Origin: Halorientalis sp. IM1011
GTDB taxonomy: Archaea > Halobacteriota > Halobacteria > Halobacteriales > Haloarculaceae
Direction: 5' to 3'
DNA length: 64,000 nt
Assembly (NCBI RefSeq): GCF_001989615.1
Contig: NZ_CP019067.1
Location: 1,116,001 to 1,180,000, forward strand
In this document: positions 14,244 to 19,223 of the stretch, one piece after another
Position numbering within the stretch: the stretch's first letter is position 1
Layout: each line of letters begins with the position of its first letter
Notes under the pieces: generated by a model
The model's database searches: none
Told to the model about the DNA's origin: nothing
The model's input: only the letters and a program-made list of their open reading frames with translations
Made by a program: the position numbers and the translations under genes

Positions 14244-14792
14244 TCACTCACAGACCGAGAGGAAGTTCTCGAAGACCGCTTCGCCTTCCTCGGTGTGGGA
14301 GACCTCCGGGTGCCACTGGACGCCGTAGAGGTCTCGATCGCGGTCGCTCATGGCCTCGACGCCGCAGACGTCGCTGGTGGCGGTCCGGGTGAACCCGTCG
14401 GGGACCTCCTTGACTTCGTCGGCGTGACTGGCCCACACCCGCGTTTCGGGTGCGAGCGACCCGATCAGCGGGTCGGTGTCGTCGGTGATCTCGACGGTCA
14501 CGTCGGCGTAGCCGCCGTAGTCGCCTTCGCCGATCCGACCGCCGAGCTCGTCGGCGATGAGCTGCATCCCGAGGCAGATCCCGAAGACCGGGACGTCCAG
14601 ATCGAGGTAGTCCGGGCAGTTGCCGATGTCGTCGATGTCCGGGCCGCCCGAGAGGACGAGCCCGTCGGCGTCGATCTCCTCGGGCGGGGTAGTGTTGTCG
14701 ATCAGTTCCACGTCCACGCCCAGATCGCGGAGCGCGCGGTGTTCCAGGTGGGTGAACTGGCCGTGGTTGTCGACCACGTCGATACGCGTCAT
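14244..14792 (-). CDS. guaAA: GMP synthase subunit A (glutamine amidotransferase)
   Basis: A 182-residue class I glutamine amidotransferase. The catalytic Cys is in FGICLGMQL, and the His-Glu pair is in VQWHPEVSHTE. It supplies ammonia from glutamine to a separate ATP-pyrophosphatase subunit (GuaAB) that turns XMP into GMP. The short length, without the synthetase domain, marks the archaeal two-subunit arrangement. GuaAB is not next to it in the window. The protein begins MTRIDVVDNHGQFTHLEH as in relatives. Confidence 0.95.
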   Translation of the reverse strand: MTRIDVVDNHGQFTHLEHRALRDLGVDVELIDNTTPPEEIDADGLVLSGGPDIDDIGNCPDYLDLDVPVFGICLGMQLIADELGGRIGEGDYGGYADVTVEITDDTDPLIGSLAPETRVWASHADEVKEVPDGFTRTATSDVCGVEAMSDRDRDLYGVQWHPEVSHTEEGEAVFENFLSVCE

Positions 14793-15643: not shown

Positions 15644-17338
15644 ATGAGCAACGTTCTCGACAGGTATCGCGCCCTGCTGTGGGGATCGATGGATCGACTC
15701 GGCGTGACTGGGTCGGTCGAGCGGAAGGTGGTCGCGGCGGTGGCGATCCAGTTCGCTATCTCGCTGGCCCAGGCCGTCGTCCCGTTTCTGGCCACCGGGC
15801 TCGTCCGCGTCGCGCTGGTCGGCACGCTCGTCGTCGCGGCCCTCGTCGCGTTCCTGAACACTCTCCTCATCACGCGCGAGGATCTGGTCGACCCGATCCA
15901 GGACCTCGAAGCGACGGTCGCGTCGGTGGCGGTCGGCGACCTCGACGTGACCGCCGCCAGATCCGACCAGCCCGACGAGGTCGGGTCACTCACCAACGCC
16001 GTCGCCGACATGAGCGAGTACCTGACGACCGTCTCTCGGCAGGCCGACGCGCTGGCCCGCCAGGAGTTCGACGCGCCCGCGCTGGAGGAGGACGTCCCCG
16101 GCGAGTTCGGCGAGTCGCTGTCGACGATGGCCGCGGAACTCGAAGGCTACACGACGGAACTGGAGGAGATGACCGCCGAACTTCAGGAACGCTCGGCGAA
16201 CTTGGAGGAGATGGCGGCTGCCTTCGCCGAGGCGACCGAGCGGGCCCGCGAGGGCGACCTGACCGCGACGGTCGAGTACGACGCTAGCGAGGACGAGTAC
16301 GCGTCCGTCGTCGACAACTACAACGAGTTGCTGGGGACGCTGGCCGACACCGTCGGCGACGTGGCCGCCTTCGCCAGCACGGTTGCGGAGACGAGCGACG
16401 ACCTCCAGTCCTCGGTCGCCGAGATCGACCGCGCCAGCGACGAGATCGCCGGCTCGACGGGGGAGATCTCGGAGGGGGCGGCCACCCAGAGCGACCGGCT
16501 CCAGCTGGTCGCCAGCGAGATGAACACGCTCTCGGCGACGGTCCAGCAGATCGCAGCCTCGGCCGACGAGGTCGCAGACACCGCCGAAGAAGCCGCCGAA
16601 CGGGGGCGCTCGGGCCGGGAGGCCGCCGCCGACGCCATCGAGGAACTCGACGCCGTCGAGGACCGCATCGACCGCACCGCCGAGGACGTGGCCGGCCTCG
16701 CGACCAAGATCGGCCGGATCGACGAGATCGTCGCGGACGTCGAGGAGATCGCCGCGGAGACGAATCTGCTCGCGCTGAACGCCTCCATCGAGGCCGCCCG
16801 CGCCGGACAGGACAGCGAGGGCTTCGCCGTCGTCGCCGACGAGGTGAAAGCGCTGGCCGACGAGGCCCGCACCTCCGCCGACGAGATGTCTGACCTCATC
16901 GCCGAGATCCAGCGCGAGGCCGACGAGACCGCCGCGACCGCTCGCGAGATGAACGAGCAGGTGACCGACAGCATCGCGACCGTCGAGGGTACGCTGTCGA
17001 ACTTCGACGACATCGTCGAGGTCGTCGGCGAGTTGCACACGAGCGTCACGGAGATTTCGACGGCGACCGACGATCAGGCCGGGACCACACAGGAGGTCGT
17101 CGAGATGGTCGACGAGGTGGCCTCGATCAGCGAGGAGACCGCCGCCGAGGCCGACACCGTCGCCGCGGCCGCCCAACAGCAGACCGACTCGGTTTCGACC
17201 GTCGCCGACCAGACCGAGTCCCTGTCGGCCGAAGCGGCCGATCTGACCGACCTTCTGGATCGGTTCCGGCTCCCGGGCGCGTCCGTCCAGCCCGGTTCGG
17301 CCGTCGAACCCGGCGCGACCCGGCCCGCAGATGACTGA
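15644..17338 (+). CDS. Methyl-accepting chemotaxis transducer (HAMP + MA domain)
   Basis: A 564-residue halobacterial transducer. Two membrane helices lie close together (residues about 25-70) with no sizeable external sensor, so it may sense through the membrane, through a partner, or internally. HAMP-like segments follow (about 73-215), then the long coiled-coil signalling domain. Its hairpin tip is intact ([20 protein letters not shown]), the site that contacts CheA and CheW. Ala/Glu-rich methylation helices flank it. A short Pro/Thr tail ends the protein. The signal is unknown. No other che genes are in the window. Confidence 0.9.
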
Positions 17339-17384: not shown

Positions 17385-19223
17385 TCACTCCGGAACGGCC
17401 GTCGGCGTCTCCGCGACGGATTCCTTGCTCCCCTCGGTGAAGACGAACCGCGCACCCTGATCGTAGTCGGAGTCGTGTTCGACGGTCCAGCCGTGGGACT
17501 CGGCCATCGTCCGGACGATGGAGAGGCCGAGTCCGGTCCCCTCCTCGGTGGTGGTGTAGCCGTACTCGAAGATGTCGTCGGCGTGTTCCGCGGGGATGCC
17601 GGGACCGTCGTCTTCGACGTAGAACCCGCCGGACGTCCCGCCGACCTCGACGGCCACGTCGGCCGGGCCGTGGGCGACAGCGTCATCGGACGAAGTCCGA
17701 TTGCCCGTGGAACCGTGTTCGACAGCGTCTTCAGAACGCTTCGCGTTCTGATTGCCCGTCGAACCGTGTTCGACAGCGTTCCGGAAGCAGTTCTCCAGGA
17801 TCGAGAGGAGTTTCGAGCGGTCGGCCTGGATCTGTCGGTCGTCGGCGACGGTTAGCGTCGCGTCGCCGGTGTCGACGTTGGCCCAGGCGTCGCGGGCGGC
17901 CGTGGCCAGCGAGACCGACTCGGTCTCCTCGACGGTCTTGCCCTCGCGAGCGATGGTGAGGATATCCTCGATGATCGACTCCATCCGCTCGTGGCTGGTC
18001 CGGATCTCGTCGAGATGCCCGGCTGCGGTGTCGGCCTCGTCGGCGTCGATTCCGTCCTCGTCGAGCATCCCCGTCAGGATCTCCGCGTAGCCGTCGGCGA
18101 CGTTGATGGGGTTGCGGAGGTCGTGTGAGATCGTCGAGGCGACCTGATCGAGGCGTTCGTTCTGTTTTTCGAGTTGCCAGCGGGACTGTTCGAGCGCGGT
18201 CACATCCCGTAGCAGGATCGACAGCCACTCCCCGTCCCGGTCGCCCCGTGCGACCCGCGAGACGGTGACGGAGTAGTGGCGGTCCTGACCGTCGGCCGGC
18301 ATCGTGATCCGGTCCGCCTCCTCACCGTCCTCACGCAGGTCGACGACGTCGGCGAGCATCGGGCAGACGTCCTCGAACGGGTCCCCGACGCGGCCCTCGA
18401 GATCGGACCAGACGTGCGTACTGGCCTCGTTGTAGTCGACGACGCGGCGTTCGTCGTCGAGGACGAGGACTGGATCACGGAGGTTCTCCACGACGGCGTT
18501 GCGCGCGACCGGCTGGACGTTCAGCAGGTCGAACCGGAAGAGTGCGAGGGTCACGAACACGTTGAACGGGATCGTCGAGTAGGTGGCGTGGTTGAGGTGG
18601 TCGGCGGGGAACAGGCCCGCCTGACTCGCGGCGGTGATGACCACGACCGAGAGCACGGCGGCGATCAGCAGGGCGAGCTGTTTCGTCGCGCGCGCCGAGG
18701 TCGAGAGCAGGTACACGTACAGCTTGTAGAGCGTGTACCCCCCGAGCGCGTAGGTGAGCAGATAGACGACACCCAGTCCCGCCTCGACCTCGTAGGCGTA
18801 GTAGGTGATCGGCTCCTGTATCAGTCGGACGTTCGTGGTATAGAGACCGTCCGGTCTGGTCAGCGAGAGGACGACGAACCCGCCGAGGATCGCCGTCATC
18901 GTCGCACGGGTCAACCAGTGACGGTGGAAATCCGTCCCCGTGTACCGGCCGGCGAACACGGTAAAGGAGAGGTACGAACAGAACGCGAGCAACGCGATCG
19001 GGAAGAACAGCGCCCGCTTGCCCCCCGACGGCGGGACGAACAGATAGATCCAGAAGAAAAACGCCGAGATCCCCCCGGTGATCAGCGTGATCACGAACCA
19101 CTTCGCCCCCGCCTGATCCCAGTGACGGCGATAGATCCAGTAGCTCAGGCCCGCGTGCAACAACACCGTAACCGCCGGCAGCGCGTAGTACGCCAACTCG
19201 ACGGCCGAGAGACTACTGGCCAT
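17385..19223 (-). CDS. 7TM sensor histidine kinase with PAS domain and expanded N-box
   Basis: A 612-residue membrane kinase. Seven hydrophobic helices (about 1-205) form a histidine-kinase N-terminal 7TM sensor. A PAS domain follows (about 215-330), then HisKA with the phospho-acceptor His in STISHDLRNP, and a HATPase domain with DDGPGIPAEH and GTGLGLSIV. The ATP N-box is interrupted: after ENCFRNAVEHGSTGN come a second near-copy (DAVEHGSTGN) and a third, weaker DAVAHG. The extra 17-residue units are in frame, so the kinase is probably still folded. No response regulator is adjacent. Confidence 0.9.
   Translation of the reverse strand: MASSLSAVELAYYALPAVTVLLHAGLSYWIYRRHWDQAGAKWFVITLITGGISAFFFWIYLFVPPSGGKRALFFPIALLAFCSYLSFTVFAGRYTGTDFHRHWLTRATMTAILGGFVVLSLTRPDGLYTTNVRLIQEPITYYAYEVEAGLGVVYLLTYALGGYTLYKLYVYLLSTSARATKQLALLIAAVLSVVVITAASQAGLFPADHLNHATYSTIPFNVFVTLALFRFDLLNVQPVARNAVVENLRDPVLVLDDERRVVDYNEASTHVWSDLEGRVGDPFEDVCPMLADVVDLREDGEEADRITMPADGQDRHYSVTVSRVARGDRDGEWLSILLRDVTALEQSRWQLEKQNERLDQVASTISHDLRNPINVADGYAEILTGMLDEDGIDADEADTAAGHLDEIRTSHERMESIIEDILTIAREGKTVEETESVSLATAARDAWANVDTGDATLTVADDRQIQADRSKLLSILENCFRNAVEHGSTGNQNAKRSEDAVEHGSTGNRTSSDDAVAHGPADVAVEVGGTSGGFYVEDDGPGIPAEHADDIFEYGYTTTEEGTGLGLSIVRTMAESHGWTVEHDSDYDQGARFVFTEGSKESVAETPTAVPE
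17667..17779 (-). repeat. In-frame repeated N-box segment with palindromic spacers
   Basis: Two 29-base copies differing at one base lie at 17700-17728 and 17751-17779, spaced 51 bases (17 codons) apart, with a third degenerate copy from 17667. The spacers are themselves palindromic: CAGAACG/CGTTCTG and TCGGAC/GTCCGA. The whole block encodes repeated (D/N)AVEHGSTGN in the kinase N-box. Confidence 0.8.

Follow-up and report, generated by a model that had tools for sequence, protein, structure and literature searches.

Tandem two-hairpin elements in the N-box of a haloarchaeal histidine kinase and their occurrence in other protein genes

Palindromic elements in coding DNA

The CGTC-tagged REPs of bacteria are short stem-loops with a CGTC tag and heterogeneous stems; five bacterial phyla are named as their hosts and Archaea are absent. 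The group includes RPE-4 and RPE-6, is mostly intergenic, and mostly ends in a CCA tail (PMC3733652). These repeats are the nearest described kin of a two-hairpin mini-element, here called E. Two tandem copies of E make up the duplicated N-box of a histidine kinase gene of Halorientalis sp. IM1011, which lies in the 64-kb stretch of DNA analysed here (the window).

How close is the resemblance? Like E, the CGTC-tagged REPs have heterogeneous stems and carry the unpaired tag (CGTC, or else TGTC or CCTC) at one end (GACG on the E strand); almost every copy of E has GAC(G) after hairpin 2, a feature that the class-wide search pattern itself required. Both have in-frame intragenic copies, including some in DNA repair genes, and no dedicated transposase is known. 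However, the tail of E is GCYN on the CGTC strand and not CCA, and E is a fixed two-hairpin unit, arranged head-to-tail with a flanking 6-nt repeat, whereas CGTC-tagged REPs are single hairpins or head-to-head dimers. Moreover, most copies of E examined, in a search partly biased towards kinases, lie in frame inside genes and not in intergenic DNA. Since the tag and the habit are shared but the tail, arrangement, and intergenic bias are not, we call E REP-like and not a REP. Rickettsia RPE-1, as cited in PMC3733652, is likewise a palindrome found in frame in unrelated protein genes, a habit that E displays. RPE-1 is longer, and the likeness drawn here is one of described habit. We know of no tandem expansion of RPE-1 within a single domain.

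Comparison with other mobile elements gives a mixed picture. As in MITEs, there is a target-site duplication, exact for GACGCC in a threonine synthase gene and imperfect at other sites; by inspection, the two ends of E (for example GTCAGGC... and ...CTCCGAT in threonine synthase) do not form inverted repeats. The PATEs and SMRs of Haloquadratum are also haloarchaeal and transposase-free and have very short forms (52 bp and 80 bp). PATEs bear palindromes, and SMR-A targets the near-terminal palindromes of IS605 elements, as do E-like inserts in the genus studied here. Unlike E, these elements are described as inserting without target duplication, and copies in frame within coding sequence are not a habit reported for them; SMR-A is ~110 bp with terminal inverted repeats, whereas E is 39-45 nt with a 6-bp duplication (PMC3119063). 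E thus has neither the duplication-free insertion of PATEs and SMRs nor the size and inverted repeats of SMR-A.

Two further systems combine palindromes with coding. PARCEL repeats are tandem, palindromic, and in frame, and are thought to spread among genes and genomes; they encode a 25-residue amphipathic repeat in ORFs without assigned function, many of them membrane-targeted (PMC2996958), while E is a two-hairpin insert in conserved enzymes. In the mitochondria of Nematomorpha, palindrome and protein coding coexist as they do in E. There the palindromes are perfect inverted repeats of up to 284 bp in conserved native coding sequence (PMC6649704), in contrast to the repeated short inserts formed by E. 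A full-text literature search, in which subscription journals were mostly outside coverage, gave no relevant match for an archaeal description of E.

The kinase array and its hairpins

The window protein fits a histidine kinase. HisKA_7TM, HisKA, and HATPase_c are found by Pfam, together with a weak PAS match, and the alignment has the invariant residues N137, D193, G195, G197, G217, G219, and G221 (the N-box Asn and the G boxes). The N-box Asn is the Mg-binding residue in histidine kinases. A gene resembling methyl-accepting transducers (15644-17338, from reading the sequence) converges on the kinase gene.

The original prediction described two 29-base copies with one mismatch, 51 bases apart, a degenerate third copy, and palindromic spacers, and every one of these features holds on the sequence. 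The direct copies at 17696-17728 and 17747-17779 match at 94% of 33 nt, at a distance of 51 nt, with a single base difference in their inner 29 nt (17700-17728 and 17751-17779). The palindromic spacers are CAGAACGCTTCGCGTTCTG (17732-17750) and ATCGGACGAAGTCCGAT (17685-17701). Read on the coding strand, the array is FRN-AVEHGSTGNQNAKRSED-AVEHGSTGNRTSSDD-AVAHGPADV, the inserts sitting where the N-box helix ends. What had been overlooked is that the AVEHGST unit is a hairpin as well (GTCGAACACGGTTCGAC), which gives each unit two of them. The parts are as follows.

17385-19223, minus strand: histidine kinase gene, 612 amino acids (ORF, translation, Pfam)
17775-17780, minus strand: left direct repeat AACGCT, the native N-box Asn-Ala codons (sequence; compare the GACGNC repeats elsewhere)
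17758-17774, minus strand: element 1, hairpin 1 (7-3-7), GTCGAAC ACG GTTCGAC, coding V-E-H-G-S-T (sequence, covariation)
17754-17757, minus strand: element 1, linker GGGC, consensus NRGC (sequence; same linker in non-kinase copies)
17730-17753, minus strand: element 1, hairpin 2, AATCAGAACGCGAAGCGTTCTGAA, with inner stem CAGAACGC/GCGTTCTG (repeat analysis; recurrence elsewhere in the genome)
17724-17729, minus strand: middle direct repeat GACGCT, with the tag GACG, or CGTC on the opposite strand (sequence)
17707-17723, minus strand: element 2, hairpin 1, GTCGAAC ACG GTTCCAC, coding V-E-H-G-S-T, one stem mismatch (sequence)
17703-17706, minus strand: element 2, linker GGGC (sequence)
17685-17702, minus strand: element 2, hairpin 2, AATCGGACTTCGTCCGAT (repeat analysis, covariation)
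17679-17684, minus strand: right direct repeat GACGCT (sequence)
17668-17678, minus strand: degenerate third VEHG copy, V-A-H-G (orthologues with NALDHGPADVTVEV)

The general layout of E is a 7-3-7 hairpin (17 nt), the linker NRGC, a variable second hairpin of 18, 21, or 24 nt, and a GACGNC direct repeat, giving 39-45 + 6 nt. In the window, hairpin 1 is 17 nt, the linker is GGGC, hairpin 2 is 24 nt in one unit and 18 nt in the other, and the repeat is 6 nt; these lengths add up to 51 and 45 nt, the spacings observed. A structural scan of both strands ranks the array as the top double hairpin of the window (score 16, the next scoring 12.4), where Markov controls give 0-1 per strand scoring 12 or more. 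The array exceeds chance. A weaker double hairpin at 14436-14475 (score 12.4) is at chance level.

Are the stems maintained as stems? In a blind covariation analysis of all column pairs, the strongest complementary signal comes from the nested pairs of both hairpins, in 45-, 48-, and 51-nt units alike. Kinase units show GTSGARCAYGGYTCSAC-type pairing of third codon positions. The doubly synonymous pair V3-S3 is complementary in 153 of 178 units (79 expected; maximum of 10,000 shuffles 105), and the doubly synonymous pair E3-G3 in 149 of 178 (84 expected; shuffle maximum 109), while mispaired control columns give no covariation. Independent counts on 49 and 37 units find 96.8% and 95.0% of cells paired, with both sides changed in 93 and 87 cells, respectively. 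The covariation scores are 0.379 and 0.444 against 0.136 and 0.149 after shuffling (~3x); kinship among units inflates such counts, but slid controls nevertheless collapse to 0.09 or less.

Pairing this strong (95-97% of cells), at one domain position that recurs across 63 genera, could be taken to mean that (D)AVEHGST repeats are a selected mRNA hairpin or protein feature, which tunes kinase expression or ATP binding. We regard this as highly improbable. The stem mismatches on the sense strand comprise 25 G.U and 29 A.C, without preference for G.U, and the sense mRNA is therefore unlikely to be the level of constraint; selection for sense-mRNA structure is disfavoured on this count. Furthermore, presence of the inserts varies among congeneric orthologues, the same elements occur in metabolic genes, and the insert is predicted, with low confidence, to be a loop. 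The paired changes fit a DNA-level requirement for a hairpin, or hairpin-templated copying, better than selection on mRNA structure. The stems are highly variable, with 28 different 5-prime arms in 61 units, and may be renewed. The spacer residue pairs T-S, P-A, and A-P are a consequence of the palindromic DNA.

Distribution among kinases and other genes

How widespread are the kinase arrays? Pairs of VEHG units at the expected distance are found in 211 of 391 sampled Halobacteria genomes and in 63 of 86 genera, with a reversed-pattern control near zero, and three further kinases of the Halorientalis genome carry them. Kinase-type N-boxes hold 105 of 106 scanned haloarchaeal VEHGST loci (89 assigned by script and 16 by eye), one locus lying elsewhere, and 111 of 112 adjacent unit pairs have in-frame spacing. 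Among the matches listed in a scan of GTDB genomes, VEHGST outside the haloarchaea occurs as isolated matches and not as arrays.

Hairpin 1 in kinases codes V-E-H-G-S-T, so the N-box stays readable; in the window, hairpin 1 of element 1 completes a functional N-box, N-AVEHG. The middle repeat codes Asp at the position of the native N-box Asn, and since the GACGCC repeat gives Asp instead of Asn, the extra units are not additional functional N-boxes. An AlphaFold model built from 40 sequences (mean pLDDT 80) scores the N-box helix (124-142) and the strand after it (179-185) above 90 and most of the insert at ~50-58, as would be expected of a tolerated loop.

Other arrays differ in their details. 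In L029 (minus strand, ~1500-1710), the unit VEPCST replaces VEHGST, the loop of hairpin 1 being inverted with its stems intact. Two kinases with VEHGST units (L031 and L075) are frameshifted downstream of the N-box. Arrays in L148, L126, L068, L082, and L118 also contain other hairpin types (GSENAS, EPSVADAPED, HQTESD), and the EPSVADAPED hairpin resembles the 48-type spacer in another reading frame. Neighbouring units alternate the Val codons GTC and GTG.

The original prediction was right in outline to see a palindromic mini-element at a tolerant site, but E is not confined to the N-box. The inner stem of hairpin 2 recurs in the same genome in an alpha/beta-hydrolase gene, in another kinase, and at IS200/IS605 left ends. 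Two CBS genes, intergenic DNA, and MutS of this genome hold the complete two-hairpin architecture. In the MutS gene (L308:13592-17101), the E-like insert (SEVSSEASRTASQSDAAEQ) is in frame near the end of domain V. With ~2 tagged copies in a 464-kb sample of this genome (twenty 20-kb stretches and the window), E is not abundant.

The class-wide search fixed GACGNC, RGCARYC, and GRYGACG and placed no constraint on the 17 bases of hairpin 1. Such a pattern is loose in GC-rich genomes and its raw matches are mostly chance, so only hairpin-filtered rows were used. Among the matches listed, 24 of 97 distinct sequences form 6 or all 7 of the base pairs of the 7-3-7 frame; shuffles average 0.3 such sequences and never exceed 2, and shifted frames give none. 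A second stem, 5 bp or longer, is present in 20 of those 24. A chance origin is rejected by this pairing, by the covariation, and by the double-hairpin scan of the window. Many non-kinase copies lie in frame inside conserved genes such as enoyl-CoA hydratase and threonine synthase. The Pfam hosts are MutS, ECH, PALP (threonine synthase), ETF, BirA, TrpA, epimerase, beta-CASP, GNAT, AIRS, FAD, abhydrolase, NUDIX, and CBS. In viral contigs, three pattern matches were found, none of them an array, which lends no support to viral carriage.

Comparison of filled and empty sites indicates recent gain. Of 17 congeneric orthologues of threonine synthase, 16 have an empty site, which reads GACTACGACGCCATCGACCTC in L399, L404, and L405. 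The one filled orthologue reads GACTAC-GACGCC-(45-nt E)-GACGCC-ATCGACCTC, with the 6 bp GACGCC duplicated exactly. Elsewhere the two copies of the repeat often fail to match: kinases have AACGCC and GACGCC, and a CBS gene has GACAGC and GACGGC. Exact 6-bp duplications are thus limited to the cleanest cases. BirA is filled in two of eight congeners and the CBS gene in two of five; the hydrolase is clearly filled in three of six, a fourth being degenerate. Together, the alignments of empty and filled orthologues show that E was gained recently.

Copy number varies too, as the original prediction had expected of close relatives. The window kinase has two inserts, congeneric orthologues 79% and 76% identical to it have none, and other members of the subfamily have one; a Natrinema non-kinase gene has 0, 0, 1, and 2 VEHGST cassettes in four genomes of that one genus. 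All of these comparisons are between species. Between two close Haloferax strains, whose plasmid records include kinases with arrays, no difference in the array region was found. Across species copy number is not fixed, and palindromic spacers of the same kind occur elsewhere, so neither of the refuting conditions set by the original prediction holds.

Can such arrays arise by local tandem duplication only, the N-box and spacer growing in kinases by slippage or unequal recombination, with no mobile element? Some arrays have near-identical head-to-tail units (L070, L133, L012), and every unit is flanked by direct repeats. However, the kinase cassette occurs in the Natrinema gene in 0, 1, or 2 copies, and the same architecture, with other stems, occurs in unrelated genes that have empty orthologues, with the exact duplication in threonine synthase. 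Adjacent units also share the third base of the Val codon less often than expected (36 of 125 pairs against 54.5; 4 of 20,000 shuffles as low), an excess of differing codons that fits recombinational loss of identical neighbours. Duplication as the sole process is therefore improbable, and slippage or recombination, the route of growth named in the original prediction, is not supported as the only one; insertion is needed, after which these processes may alter array length.

Origin of the element and what it means

The window array probably arose when a haloarchaeal two-hairpin mini-element inserted twice, head-to-tail; the family of this element is scattered in frame through protein genes. 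E would insert at RAC/GACGNC-like sites, duplicating the target (exactly in one clean case), and would survive only where the reading frame is preserved. If hairpin 1 is the start of E, as its boundaries in threonine synthase suggest, the insertion point in kinases falls between Asn-Ala and Val-Glu-His-Gly, just after the catalytic Asn-Ala codons. Hairpin 1 would then supply V-E-H-G and so retain N-AVEHG, which may be the reason for the enrichment in kinases. The native VEHG would end up further downstream, in the loop that precedes the next strand, and would decay there; copies could persist because the loop tolerates extra residues. We read the degenerate third copy in the window as such a displaced continuation, as the HGPADV that follows matches empty orthologues (VAHGPADV in the window, LDHGPADV in empty orthologues). 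Two relatives retain the VDHG of the subfamily in their last unit, and in these few cases the sequences point to displacement of the native N-box remainder. Arrays might lengthen through further insertions or through tandem duplication mediated by the direct repeats, and might spread among paralogous kinases by recombination.

What moves E? A mobilising enzyme is presumed, and no transposase, mobilising gene, or source element for E was found in this analysis. IS200/IS605-type insertion is described as lacking target duplication (PMC3119063), and the 6-bp duplication argues against a simple insertion of this type. In the genus studied here, IS200/IS605 left ends occur with the E-like insert (L324, L327, L328, L329, L330) and without it (L321, L322, L325). 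The empty ends show that the E-like sequence was inserted there and is not native, which rejects a derivation of E from IS605 ends; since these copies are themselves insertions, the shared inner hairpin is uninformative on mobilisation by a Y1 transposase, as in REP/RAYT systems. The inserts occupy the near-terminal palindrome and can face either way, which recalls the targets of SMR-A in Haloquadratum, and the copy in the Halorientalis genome (L327) is missing a clear GACG on the left.

Alternatively, E could be written by template-switch repair at a break or stalled fork, where a fold-back copy of the target gives hairpin 1, a stray palindrome gives hairpin 2, and return to the target leaves the direct repeat. 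A single copying event of this kind would also explain the stem covariation and sits well with the variety of the stems (28 arms in 61 units). In several hosts the likeness between the repeats continues into hairpin 1: its left arm is on average 53% identical to the sequence after the right repeat, against 37% for a comparison arm, and in BirA and TrpA the repeat extends through the entire arm. This resemblance suggests that part of hairpin 1 derives from the target and that hairpin 1 is not a fixed part of E, and it leaves room for hairpin-templated synthesis at insertion. Nevertheless, the constant NRGC, 7-3-7 frame, GACG tag, and unit sizes across unrelated loci appear more regular than repair would be expected to yield. 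The left arm in threonine synthase is no copy of its target (GTCAGGC against ATCGACC), and unrelated loci share the same inner hairpin. Repair as the origin of E is thus unlikely, and insertion of a mini-element remains the preferred reading.

On balance, we lean towards seeing E as a family of archaeal coding mini-elements not described before, with a conserved structure and with most stem bases free to change in pairs. Across Halobacteria, this family would have been active in recent times in conserved metabolic genes, with one lineage mimicking the kinase N-box so that its insertion restores the motif. If this is true, REP/RPE-like coding palindromes extend to Archaea, and a selfish-looking element builds new protein segments in conserved enzymes and in the catalytic domain of sensor kinases. 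Apparent protein repeats and covarying residues there (T-S, P-A, A-P) would be dictated by DNA palindromes, and the inserts should be masked when haloarchaeal kinases are annotated or placed in trees. The clean pairs of empty and filled sites, together with one exact duplication of the target, make the movement of such elements, a long-standing question, testable in genetically tractable haloarchaea.
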